64,000 nucleotides of DNA from an uncultured Poribacteria bacterium (GTDB lineage: Bacteria; Poribacteria; WGA-4E; WGA-3G): assembly GCA_951828385.1 (NCBI GenBank), contig OX639973.1, positions 5,695,200 to 5,759,199 of the forward strand, given 5' to 3'. Position 1 is the stretch's first letter, and each line of letters begins with the position of its first letter. Below, piece after piece: positions 36,524-60,329 of this stretch. The notes beneath the pieces were generated by a model. That model had not been told where the DNA came from. It did no database searches and saw only the letters and a list, made by a program, of their open reading frames with translations. Position numbers and translations under genes: made by a program.

Positions 36524-36666
36524 TTACAGATGAGCAATGTCGCCCCTCCTTGTATATTCGATAATACGTAGGTACTCACCATATACGCGACCTCTCGATA
36601 CCTCGTGCTGATACCAATCTTCTTTGGATATTTTGACACCTTCATATTCAGCAAGATATGTAACAG
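36524..36666 (-). pseudogene. C-terminal part of a DUF218/YdcF-like gene split by the tnpB element
   Basis: Minus strand from 36666 reads in frame (P)VTYLAEYEGVKISKEDW, then YQHEVSRGRVYGEYLRIIEY, then TRRGDIAHL and stop (36524-36526). It has no start of its own. Removing the element at 36667-38135 joins it exactly in frame to the N-terminal part at 38136-38637 (TLSP-VTYL), giving a protein of about 214 residues, the size normal for this family. Confidence 0.85.
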
Positions 36667-36800
36667 GTCAAGTACCCCTCACTAAAGTAAGGGGAAACCT
36701 GTTAAGAGTGTTAACAAGCCTATCGGTCTACCGATAAGTTTCTCGCTTCATAGAGGTCGGTAACCCAACGCTCTCCACGATGGGCGCAAGCCGCCCTGAA
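36667..36800 (-). ncRNA. Predicted omega-RNA (reRNA) region at the right end of the tnpB element
   Basis: TnpB nucleases use an RNA spanning the 3' end of tnpB and the right end of the element, with the guide copied from flanking DNA. Hairpins here are TATCGG-tcta-CCGATA (36721-36736) and the right-end hairpin (36675-36694). The guide would start at 36666 (CTGTTACATATCTTGCTGAA). The 5' limit is a guess. Confidence 0.5.
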
Positions 36801-37919
36801 AAGTATGTTTACGGCAGCATTGTGGTCTCGGTCTAACGAAGTGCCACAAAACTGACAATCAAAGGTCCGTATCGCAAGCGAGAGTTTCTTTTGCGATTTC
36901 TCACCACAAGTAGAGCAGGTTTGCGAAGTGTTCTTAGGATCGACTTTGTGGAAATGGAAACCGTCTCTTTCGGCTATGTTTCCAGCCCACTCAAAGAATG
37001 TTCCCCAAGATGCATCGGAAATGCTCTTGCTGAGGTGTTTGTTCTTGACCATATTGGATATGCTCAAATCCTCTGTCACTAAGACATTGTTTTCGTAATG
37101 GTGGTAGAGTTTGTAGGTGAGTTTTCCAATAAAGTCTTTACGTTTATTTCTCGTCCTTTCCTGATGCAGAGCAGACGCATGAACGGCTTTATACCAACGA
37201 CGGCTCCCTTTTTGACGGCGTGCCATCGTCTGATTCTGCTTATGCAGCAAACCTTCTGCTTGACGATACCAACGCGGGTTGTCCTCTTTTTTACCTTCAG
37301 AGGTGGTGAGATAATGCGTCGTTCCCATATCAACGGCAATCGCATCCGTCGGTTCAACTTTCGGCGTATCTCCTATATCGCAACTGATATGAGCATACCA
37401 ACCGCTGGCTTTCTTGACGAGTGTTACCTCTTTCGGATCGCCTTGTAACGGACGGTGCATATAGATTTTGACTTCGCCTAACTTTGGCACTTTTAAGCGA
37501 TTGTGTCTAAAATCGGTTTCTATTATCGGATTTTGACGGACACGTTCACCTGTTTTGAGTGTGTGCTTTCGCAAGCACCATGTGAGAGAACGGACACGCG
37601 TTTTGTAGCGAGGATACCCTTTTTTCTCCGCACCTGCCTTACAACGCCTACGGAACGCATCAAAGGCTTTGTCAACGCGCTTGAGGATGGAAACTTGGAA
37701 ATCTTGAGGCACTTCCCGAAAATCGTCATATTTTCCGCGCGCGACCTTCAAAAGTTTCTCTTGCTCAGTGCGCGGGACGAAACGACCTTCTTCTTCATGC
37801 GCATACTTGCGGTTATCGCGGGCAGAATTTTGAAGTTCACACAAGTGGTCTAACCACTCTAACAATGTTCGCTCTTGTGCTTGGGTGGGGCGCAAGGCAT
37901 ATCTAAAGGTTAATTTCAT
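36720..37919 (-). CDS. tnpB: RNA-guided endonuclease TnpB
   Basis: The start at 37919 (MKLTFRYALRPTQAQERTLLEW) gives 399 residues, normal for TnpB; an upstream extension to 38078 is non-coding. The RuvC triad is intact: Asp197 in IAVDMGTTHYL, Glu283 in LVTEDLSISNM and Asp365 in DRDHNAAVNIL. The zinc ribbon has Cys335, Cys338, Cys355 and Cys358 (CSTCGE...CQFCGT). TnpB cuts DNA next to a short TAM, guided by RNA from the element's right end, which helps the element persist. The predicted TAM here is TTCAC. Promoter at 38017-38045. Confidence 0.95.
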   Translation of the reverse strand: MKLTFRYALRPTQAQERTLLEWLDHLCELQNSARDNRKYAHEEEGRFVPRTEQEKLLKVARGKYDDFREVPQDFQVSILKRVDKAFDAFRRRCKAGAEKKGYPRYKTRVRSLTWCLRKHTLKTGERVRQNPIIETDFRHNRLKVPKLGEVKIYMHRPLQGDPKEVTLVKKASGWYAHISCDIGDTPKVEPTDAIAVDMGTTHYLTTSEGKKEDNPRWYRQAEGLLHKQNQTMARRQKGSRRWYKAVHASALHQERTRNKRKDFIGKLTYKLYHHYENNVLVTEDLSISNMVKNKHLSKSISDASWGTFFEWAGNIAERDGFHFHKVDPKNTSQTCSTCGEKSQKKLSLAIRTFDCQFCGTSLDRDHNAAVNILFRAACAHRGERWVTDLYEARNLSVDR

Positions 37920-38016
37920 GGTATATCCGTTATCCGCCTTTAACCCCTGTTTAGTGGGTGGGACCGACACATTACCAAGCGGTAATGCTAAACATGCCGG
38001 TCCAACGGATACTCTA

Positions 38017-38045
38017 ATTAGACCACAATTTGAACGGAATGTCAA
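38017..38045 (-). promoter_or_regulatory. Predicted tnpB promoter inside the element
   Basis: TTGACA (38045-38040), 17-bp spacer and TCTAAT (38022-38017) on the minus strand, 100 bp before the tnpB ATG. It corresponds in position to the promoter in the related element at 59777-59805. Confidence 0.55.
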
Positions 38046-38135
38046 GGTTTTTCTATAAGAAACGCCTTGGTCTAACATATAGGAGCGGACATTCCTCCTC
38101 GCCTTAAAAGACGAGGCTTCCTGCCCGAAAATTAG

Positions 38136-58625: not shown

Positions 58626-59709
58626 ACAACAGATACCTTTCAAAGTAACGAGAACCACTAATATGCCCTTTGAGGCGACTCATGCGGAGTGTCTGACGGG
58701 TCCCGTCTACAGAGACACATTCAAGCTGATAATAGTAAACAACATTCGGTTTGGCAGTCTTATCGGCGTAGGTATAGGATTGTTTCTTGTCAGTTGTGCC
58801 TGCACCGGGAATCATGCCGATGATTTTGAACTCACCATCACTGGATGCGCTTCGTTTGATGTTGAAGCCTGCACAGTTCACCTCAGATTCGGTTATCCAT
58901 TTGATGGTGATTGGCCCATCCGGTTTTTCACGCGCAGGGCGGAATTTAGAGAGTTCCACAGGCAAAGGCGCACGTACGCGATACCCCGGTGTGCCGTGAT
59001 CGCTGCGGTGCCCGTAGTAGGTATTGCGCTGTATTATATACCGAGAACCTTTTTTGCCGGTAAGCTCCCATCCGTCTGCTGCCGTGCCATCGAACGGATC
59101 ACCCGTTACGTTGTTACCCTCATACGCTCGGATAATAGAACTCCGTTGGTTTCCCTCAATCAGTGGCAGCTTCCATTCGGGTGCTTCCCCAAGGTTGCCA
59201 GCGATGTCGCTTGGTATCCTGTGCACGGTTTTCGTGGCAGCCGCTGACATGAGGGTGACTTTGAAGGCGGTTTGGCTCAAGAGGCGATAGCCCGGTGTGC
59301 CACCAACAAGGTCTTTTAGGATGACGATACGGTCTGCTCGGAAGTCGTCCCTTACAGCTCCGACACCAGAGCTGGGTCCCTGTTCAGTCACAAGTAACAG
59401 CACTTGGTTTCTATCGAGTATCTTTGCATCTAAAGTGAAGGTGAGTGTGGTGGCGAGTACGGACTTATCCGCCGGGTGGTTCTTAATTGTAACTTCCCAC
59501 CCTTCAAGGCTAACTTTCTTTCCACTTCTGTTGTGGAGTTCAATCCACTGCGGAAGTTTGTCGGCGTTGGTGACGTACATGATCTCACTGATGGCGATAT
59601 CGTACCTTGCAGCTACCGGGACGGTATCATCTTCAGCACCTACAGTGCCTTGGATGCCAAACGCTAACATGAGTGTCGCAAATATACTAAGAACGATCAA
59701 GCTTTTCAT
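58543..59709 (-). CDS. Exported lamin-tail-domain protein with an altered C-terminus
   Basis: 388 residues from ATG 59709. A signal peptide (KSLIVLSIFATLMLAFGIQGTVGA) precedes a lamin-tail domain: ISEIMYVTNADKLPQWIELHNRSGKKVSLEGWEVTI. A fibronectin-like or sorting-type domain follows (ITIKWITESEVNCAGFNIKRS, YTYADKTAKPNVVYYYQLECVSVDG). After RLKGHIS the sequence (GSRYFERYLLYENEQKIF) is read from the leader and start of the downstream lipoprotein gene in another frame, giving an 83-nt overlap. The natural C-terminus seems lost. A mobile RNA element abuts its 5' side, 15 bp before the ATG. Confidence 0.75.
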   Translation of the reverse strand: MKSLIVLSIFATLMLAFGIQGTVGAEDDTVPVAARYDIAISEIMYVTNADKLPQWIELHNRSGKKVSLEGWEVTIKNHPADKSVLATTLTFTLDAKILDRNQVLLLVTEQGPSSGVGAVRDDFRADRIVILKDLVGGTPGYRLLSQTAFKVTLMSAAATKTVHRIPSDIAGNLGEAPEWKLPLIEGNQRSSIIRAYEGNNVTGDPFDGTAADGWELTGKKGSRYIIQRNTYYGHRSDHGTPGYRVRAPLPVELSKFRPAREKPDGPITIKWITESEVNCAGFNIKRSASSDGEFKIIGMIPGAGTTDKKQSYTYADKTAKPNVVYYYQLECVSVDGTRQTLRMSRLKGHISGSRYFERYLLYENEQKIFVRLTGFNNFVRLRAGSPRN

Positions 59710-59776
59710 CAAAATCTTCAGTGTGGAAACCCCTGCCTTTAGGTAGGGGAGGAAACACTGCTCCTATGTTTTTCAT

Positions 59777-59805
59777 TTGACAAAATATGTCAAAAATGTT
59801 AGAAT
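59777..59805 (+). promoter_or_regulatory. Near-consensus promoter inside the TnpB-less element
   Basis: TTGACA (59777-59782), exactly 17 bp, TAGAAT (59800-59805). A perfect palindrome TTTGACA-AAATA-TGTCAAA (59776-59794) overlaps the -35 box and could be an operator. It points toward the hairpin-rich region and the right end. Confidence 0.65.
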
Positions 59806-59811
59806 GCTTTC

Positions 59812-60096
59812 AAAGGCAAGTCGGAAGTGTCTGCCTTATAGGACACGTTGATTATATCCGTGTCCAAGTAACTCGAAGACGTTAGAACGCTCGTTCTGCT
59901 TCCGAATGCTTCGCAGTGAGAAAAGTGTCTGAGGTTCTGTATGGAGAGCGTGAAGCAATCTCTCTAACCCCCTGTTTGAGGGGTGCGGTGGCATACAGGT
60001 AAAGTTACGAGTTTCCAAGACCGCGGAACATAAACTGCTGAGAACGACGGGGCAACTTCGCTACAAGCCCCTGACTTTAGTCAGCGGGTACTTGAC
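59812..60096 (+). ncRNA. Predicted structured RNA (omega-RNA-like) of the TnpB-less element
   Basis: Transcription from the internal promoter would give an RNA with successive hairpins: GGACACG/CGTGTCC (59841-59865), AGAACG/CGTTCT (59884-59897), GAGAG/CTCTC (59944-59964), CCCCT/AGGGG (59969-59983) and the right-end hairpin (60068-60088). No ORF of convincing quality is present on either strand. By position it corresponds to the omega-RNA of IS605 elements, with a guide that would begin at 60097 (GAAATATCTCCCTTTATTGC). RNA function is inferred. Confidence 0.5.
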
Positions 60097-60329
60097 GAAA
60101 TATCTCCCTTTATTGCCAAGTTTCAGTTTCAACATGTGTCTTGCCAGTTATTATAACCCACATCCGCTGTCTCGTCAAGTTTTCCGAAGCTGTAAAACTG
60201 AGATACAACTATTTATTTTCATCTTTAGTTGTGAACCACTTCGCCTTTTTTTAAAGAAATTTAAAGAAATATGAATTTTTCAGAAACCTGCAGGTTAAAT
60301 GTTTGAGTATCTATAGGAATCGTAAAAAT
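60097..60329. other. Intergenic stretch without a supported gene
   Basis: A+T-rich sequence between the TnpB-less element and the DUF5916 promoter. I see a CCTGCAGG palindrome near 60287 and no coding potential. Confidence 0.4.

Follow-up and report, generated by a model that had tools for sequence, protein, structure and literature searches.

A tnpB-less mobile element of Candidatus Poribacteria with a structured RNA gene resembling TnpB omegaRNAs

The locus was studied within a window of 64,000 nucleotides (the whole stretch of DNA analyzed) from an uncultured Poribacteria bacterium, whose genome consists of a single 6.66-Mb contig. Positions 59710–60096 of the forward strand are occupied by a mobile element of 387 bp, located directly after the target tetranucleotide TCAT (59706–59709). 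Both of its edges are fixed by the empty site in relatives, which moves the left edge to 59710 from position 59725 given in a preliminary description of this DNA. A query composed of the joined flanks aligned unbroken in five related species of the same genus, and at loci L249 and L250 the junction of TCAT with GAAATATCTCCC is identical at every base, with zero duplication. A seamless empty site is the signature of IS200/IS605 insertion; therefore, the element is mobile, as had been proposed. A second full copy, 95% identical, lies at 329475–329854 of the same genome, together with a 285-bp relative at 4275325–4275609 and a degenerate copy (L238) near 5171091.

Read on the minus strand, the TCAT at 59706–59709 is the ATGA at which the neighboring gene of that strand starts. 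Left ends in the window and in relatives follow TCAT or TCAC, which read ATGA or GTGA on the other strand. At 35 of 55 left ends this RTGA begins an ORF of at least 50 codons, compared with 29% of all TCAY sites, and many such RTGA sites are evident start codons followed by signal peptides.

Both ends agree with those of the tnpB element at 36.7–38.1 kb (36640–38100, minus strand; PF07282, PF01385, NF040570), a possible source of TnpB, in the order that had been described: a left hairpin, AGGA and GCTCCTAT on one side, and a right hairpin with a TTTA loop and TACTTGAC on the other. The left-end hairpin (59719–59760, forward strand) has CAGTGT and ACACTG outside CCCCTGCC-TTTA-GGTAGGGG and recurs with varied arms in other units of this kind. 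No ORF of at least 80 aa is confined to the interior, and no TnpB-like reading was found in the three forward-strand frames of 59811–60096, in agreement with the earlier view of an element without protein gene, tnpB or tnpA. The element shows features of a non-autonomous IS200/IS605 member, namely subterminal hairpins, insertion at a fixed tetranucleotide without target duplication, and the absence of internal tnpA and tnpB. The host genome contains 12 matches to Y1 transposases and 54 strong matches to tnpB; where the left end of a Y1 tnpA gene was inspected, its target was of the TTAAC or TTATC type, and no TnpA targeting TCAT was recognized.

Within the left end, TTGACA (59777–59782) and TAGAAT (59800–59805) are separated by 17 bp, and none of 100 shuffled sequences contained a promoter as good. 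Across units, 25 of 30 retain TTGACA/TATAAT boxes that lie 16–18 bp apart and have no more than two mismatches. The proposal that the element is promoter-driven is supported by this conservation, and the sigma70-type promoter (59777–59805, forward strand) is predicted to transcribe rightward. In four units (L011, L137, L138 and L140) only 7 nt separate the -10 box from GTAAC, which puts the predicted transcription start on the first base of stem H1; by eye, units of a second family (L223–L228) show this placement too.

The interior is structured, although not as the simple row of five hairpins initially suggested: it comprises two 5' hairpins, a junction-plus-double-pseudoknot fold and the right-end hairpin, all on the forward strand. 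The 5' hairpins (AAGGCA/TGCCTT and GGACACG/CGTGTCC; 59813–59865), evident from sequence and alignment, are optional and are missing in the shortest units, the same four listed above. Stem H1 (GTAAC 59868–59872 with GTTAC 60004–60008) closes the fold, has 100% of its cells paired in the alignment of relatives, and shows one compensatory change plus G-U changes. It encloses a three-way junction (59877–59930) formed by H2 (59877–59880/59927–59930), H3 (59884–59888/59893–59897) and H4 (59899–59903/59921–59925), which is 93–98% paired, with compensatory changes in H2 and H3 and hardly any variation in H4. In the window copy H4 is damaged, having gained an insertion of 11 nt and lost two pairs; the same insertion occurs in L117 from another species. 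Pseudoknot 1 (59933–60016) joins GGTT 59933–59936 with AG 60010–60011 and CC 60015–60016 and is paired in 17 of 17 rows, its changes being one-sided only (UG to UA). Stem H5 (CTGTAT 59937–59942 with ATACAG 59993–59998) shows two-sided changes at five of six pairs and encloses the optional H6 (59944–59948/59960–59964) and the hairpin H7 (CCCCT-GTTTG-AGGGG, 59969–59983), in which all five pairs have two-sided changes. Pseudoknot 2 (59984–60025) pairs TGCGGT 59984–59989 with ACCGCG 60020–60025, and the 28-row alignment contains the compensatory variants TGCGGT/ACCGCG, TGCAGT/ACTGCG, CTCGGG/CCCGAG, CTCAGG/CCTGAG and TTCGGT/ACCGAA. The omegaRNA-like 3' end (60064–60096) consists of the tail CAAGC (60064–60068), to which the H7 loop, GCTTG in most units, is complementary, the right-end hairpin with its UUUA loop, and the terminal UACUUGAC. 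A further candidate, 5' CAAGUA with 3' UACUUG as an ISDra2-type pseudoknot, was rejected; these segments are complementary in most units and show no compensatory changes.

Folding of single strands proves little by itself, because the minus strand (z = -2.25) is nearly as good as the forward strand (z = -2.75); covariation across relatives decides. Alignment A3 contains 17 scaffolds, with the optional H6 arm removed from eight long forms so that H7 aligns, and with the last six letters of row L135 typed in to complete its end, outside every counted pair. In A3, 97.5% of cells are paired compared with 85.8% in shuffles, 65 cells are changed on both sides compared with 19.4, and the covariation score is 0.377 compared with 0.156; none of 500 shuffles reached these three values. 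Additional pair types were not unusually numerous (50 of 500 shuffles). When the partners were slid along each other, pairing dropped from 97.5% to 31–44%. The unmodified 28-row alignment has 63 G-U cells and 7 A-C cells, and therefore the RNA corresponds to the forward strand, since a minus-strand fold would convert G-U to A-C. The RNA fold is real, as shown by covariation.

Matches to the element were found at the DNA level in 44 of 98 relatives, many of them being left ends only. A covariance model of the scaffold (R1), built from tnpB-less units only and excluding right-end sequence, identified 59 places in 22 of 146 genomes, and it matched in 21 of 85 genomes of the phylum. Copies and conserved pairs are present in relatives, as the stand-alone interpretation had anticipated. 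Named genomes that match the scaffold pattern all belong to Candidatus Poribacteria, and several loci are cut at one end by MAG contig boundaries. With proteins of the host genome as queries, no TnpB or IscB similarity was detected in scaffold-bearing loci, and such protein matches were limited to loci recruited through an end alone. The plasmid search gave no match to the unit; in IMG/VR a 16-mer pattern occurred in three contigs, in which the covariance model scored nothing. Rfam 15, including the group I intron, gave no family in the window at gathering score, and the sub-threshold matches FTX_1 and HgcC were judged to be chance. Our literature searches returned no report of this family of tnpB-less units. 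In L109, L125, L137–L139 and L144 the scaffold is joined to another right-end hairpin (CCTCACGA-TTTA-TCGTGAGG), which indicates that scaffold and right end recombine.

Known TnpB guide RNAs form the tail of the tnpB transcript. When R1 was run unfiltered on six tnpB loci, its three best matches were the TnpB omegaRNA at the tnpB 3' end (rough E-values of 0.0035, 0.052 and 0.053), on the correct strand and in the correct register; L018 and L049 gave weaker matches at the corresponding position, and the omegaRNA hairpin of L155 and L158 was matched as well. The core of the match is GGGCNGCUUGNGCCCUUCG, which corresponds to the H7 hairpin and its 3' neighbor. In a 22-nt comparison, short-form units and tnpB family A shared 18 of 22 positions, a value reached by 0 of 200 shuffles, while the other pairs tried were not significant. 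By eye, most units and the local TnpB omegaRNAs have an H7 loop, GCUUG, that is complementary to CAAGC or CAGGU just before the right-end hairpin. From H7 to the end, units measure about 120 nt and local TnpB omegaRNAs 104–130 nt. As judged by the G-U and A-C counts and the orientation of the promoter, the RNA strand runs toward the right end, as in TnpB omegaRNA. These similarities support homology of the unit to TnpB omegaRNA in both sequence and structure, with scores that are weak and clear for tnpB family A only. The scaffold is not simply that of the tnpB element at 36.7–38.1 kb: the unit adds a 5' domain, and sequence similarity between these two copies taken alone was not significant (24 of 200 shuffles were as good). 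TnpB omegaRNAs also differ from the unit in the middle of the scaffold. The 3' half is omegaRNA-like, which adds weight to the omegaRNA reading, and the 5' domain is new; the preliminary interpretation as a whole is partly supported. Overlap with the tnpB 3' end, a canonical omegaRNA trait, is absent, with no TnpB similarity at core-bearing loci, and the unit was therefore classed as a stand-alone, omegaRNA-like RNA outside the canonical members.

The omegaRNA of ISDra2 has a scaffold of 116 nt, a comparable stem 2, a pseudoknot, and a UUUA tetraloop that caps stem 4 (PMC10097598). The unit resembles TnpB omegaRNAs (reRNAs) of this type in its predicted 3' guide position, terminal UUUA-loop hairpin, pseudoknot, scaffold of ~116–120 nt and homology in H7 and its 3' neighborhood; in contrast, it does not overlap tnpB, has its own promoter, and bears an additional 5' domain in which a three-way junction is combined with two pseudoknots. 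PATEs, ends-only IS605 derivatives of which examples made of ends plus a tnpB tail are known (PMC7290912), share with the unit both hairpin ends, the lack of tnpA and of an intact tnpB, and mobility in trans, whereas the interior of the unit holds a conserved, promoter-bearing RNA gene in place of a tnpB fragment. Like HEARO/IscB omegaRNA (RF02033), the RNA of the unit would be a non-coding guide that moves within an IS605-type element, and HEARO/IscB-type elements of this genome have left ends related to that of the unit. However, HEARO carries its guide at the 5' end, and its RNA direction is opposite relative to the ends. The RF02033 model did not match the unit; its sole match was the iscB element L012, below gathering score.

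Taken together, these findings are probably best explained by a non-autonomous IS200/IS605-type element whose sole cargo is an omegaRNA-class RNA gene, with TnpA and TnpB supplied in trans. A putative Y1 transposase would excise the element, whose mobility is evident from the empty sites, and paste it after TCAT or TCAC. The predicted sigma70-type promoter in the left end would drive rightward transcription, and the RNA has the fold shown by covariation, with the 5' domain of three-way junction and two pseudoknots followed by the omegaRNA-like 3' half ending at the right-end hairpin. Because the transcript would read unterminated into the flank, each copy would gain a new guide that fits the empty site of its own locus beside TCAT; by analogy with TnpB biology the guide of the window copy is predicted at 60097–60116 (forward strand). 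TnpB from elsewhere in the cell could then bind the RNA and cut the empty site, and such cutting would help the element to be retained, so that it would be a satellite of TnpB elements. A search of the host genome for targets of this guide gave two sites with three mismatches, near chance, and no second target beyond it, which is expected if guides fit empty sites only. Whether the unit is in full a satellite transposon consisting only of a guide-RNA gene, that is, a tnpB-free omegaRNA with a 5' double-pseudoknot domain and its own promoter, evolving and spreading alone across Poribacteria with TnpA and TnpB taken from other elements, is in our judgment evenly balanced.

It is also conceivable, if rather unlikely, that the mobile RNA gene of the unit serves another purpose, such as regulation or control of transposition, and that the omegaRNA appearance of its 3' part reflects a reused IS605 right end. 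Known omegaRNAs lack an equivalent of the large 5' domain, local tnpB elements also bear a separate pseudoknotted 5' leader, and there is a precedent in Salmonella, where a gene-regulating small RNA derives from the IS200 tnpA transcript (PMC12594629). Nevertheless, the similarity to omegaRNAs was found in H7 and its 3' neighborhood by a model that excluded the right end, and the loop–tail pairing is common to the unit and TnpB omegaRNAs. Nuclease-dead TnpB-type repressors exist, and the genome encodes many diverse TnpB genes, so the RNA might guide such a relative to repress targets instead of cutting them; we consider this improbable, and the genome offers no second target of the guide in excess of chance. 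We consider it very improbable that the unit acts in cis as a promoter or leader for the gene past its right end: the second copy (L009) lies immediately upstream of argB in the same direction, but the orientation of the next gene is not constant and selection on the fold and pseudoknots exceeds the needs of a promoter. A decayed tnpB relic, i.e., an ordinary PATE of ends and tnpB tail (PMC7290912) without RNA function, is hardly credible despite the single degenerate copy, since it is contradicted by compensatory changes across copies and by an interior without decayed tnpB or any TnpB-like reading.

If the preferred reading of an omegaRNA-class gene served in trans is true, a separate, promoter-driven, mobile guide-RNA gene would resemble the step by which guides became independent of their nuclease, as in CRISPR-Cas12, and would represent a new sort of parasite on RNA-guided transposons. 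The host is a sponge-symbiont bacterium, in which the element may depend on a nuclease from another source in the same cell, and the new scaffold is a natural candidate trans guide RNA for testing.

Several related elements were observed in the host genome and relatives. Elements of tnpB carry a conserved pseudoknotted 5' leader (GTATCACGTTGGCAGACA..TGTCTGCC..GGGGTTAAAG..CGTGATAC) between promoter and ATG, located at 37919–38020 (minus strand) in the window and also present in L015, L048–L051, L154 and L157. The leader had no Rfam match in the window, and it was rejected as a source of the 5' domain of the unit, with the model giving no match at tnpB loci. L012, L013, L014 and L017 share the left end of the unit and encode IscB-like proteins; L013, the one tested, matched NF040563 below the cut-off. 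Trans-encoded IscB omegaRNAs were reportedly part of the 2021 OMEGA work. L016, L019 and L020 (G000 5254369, 2913935 and 1732933) are ~540 bp long with the same left-end motif and no iscB, and their interiors align, in opposite strand orientation, with the sequence upstream of the L013 iscB (score 31–39 compared with a shuffled maximum of 20.5–23); these are apparently stand-alone IscB-type omegaRNAs. Finally, L155 (1760–2130) and L158 (2010–2430) are tnpB-deleted and combine the left end and promoter type of the unit with a 5' double-pseudoknot domain, comparable by inspection, and a tnpB C-terminal omegaRNA tail. Unlike the unit, they keep a recognizable tnpB C-terminus, and they are possible intermediates.
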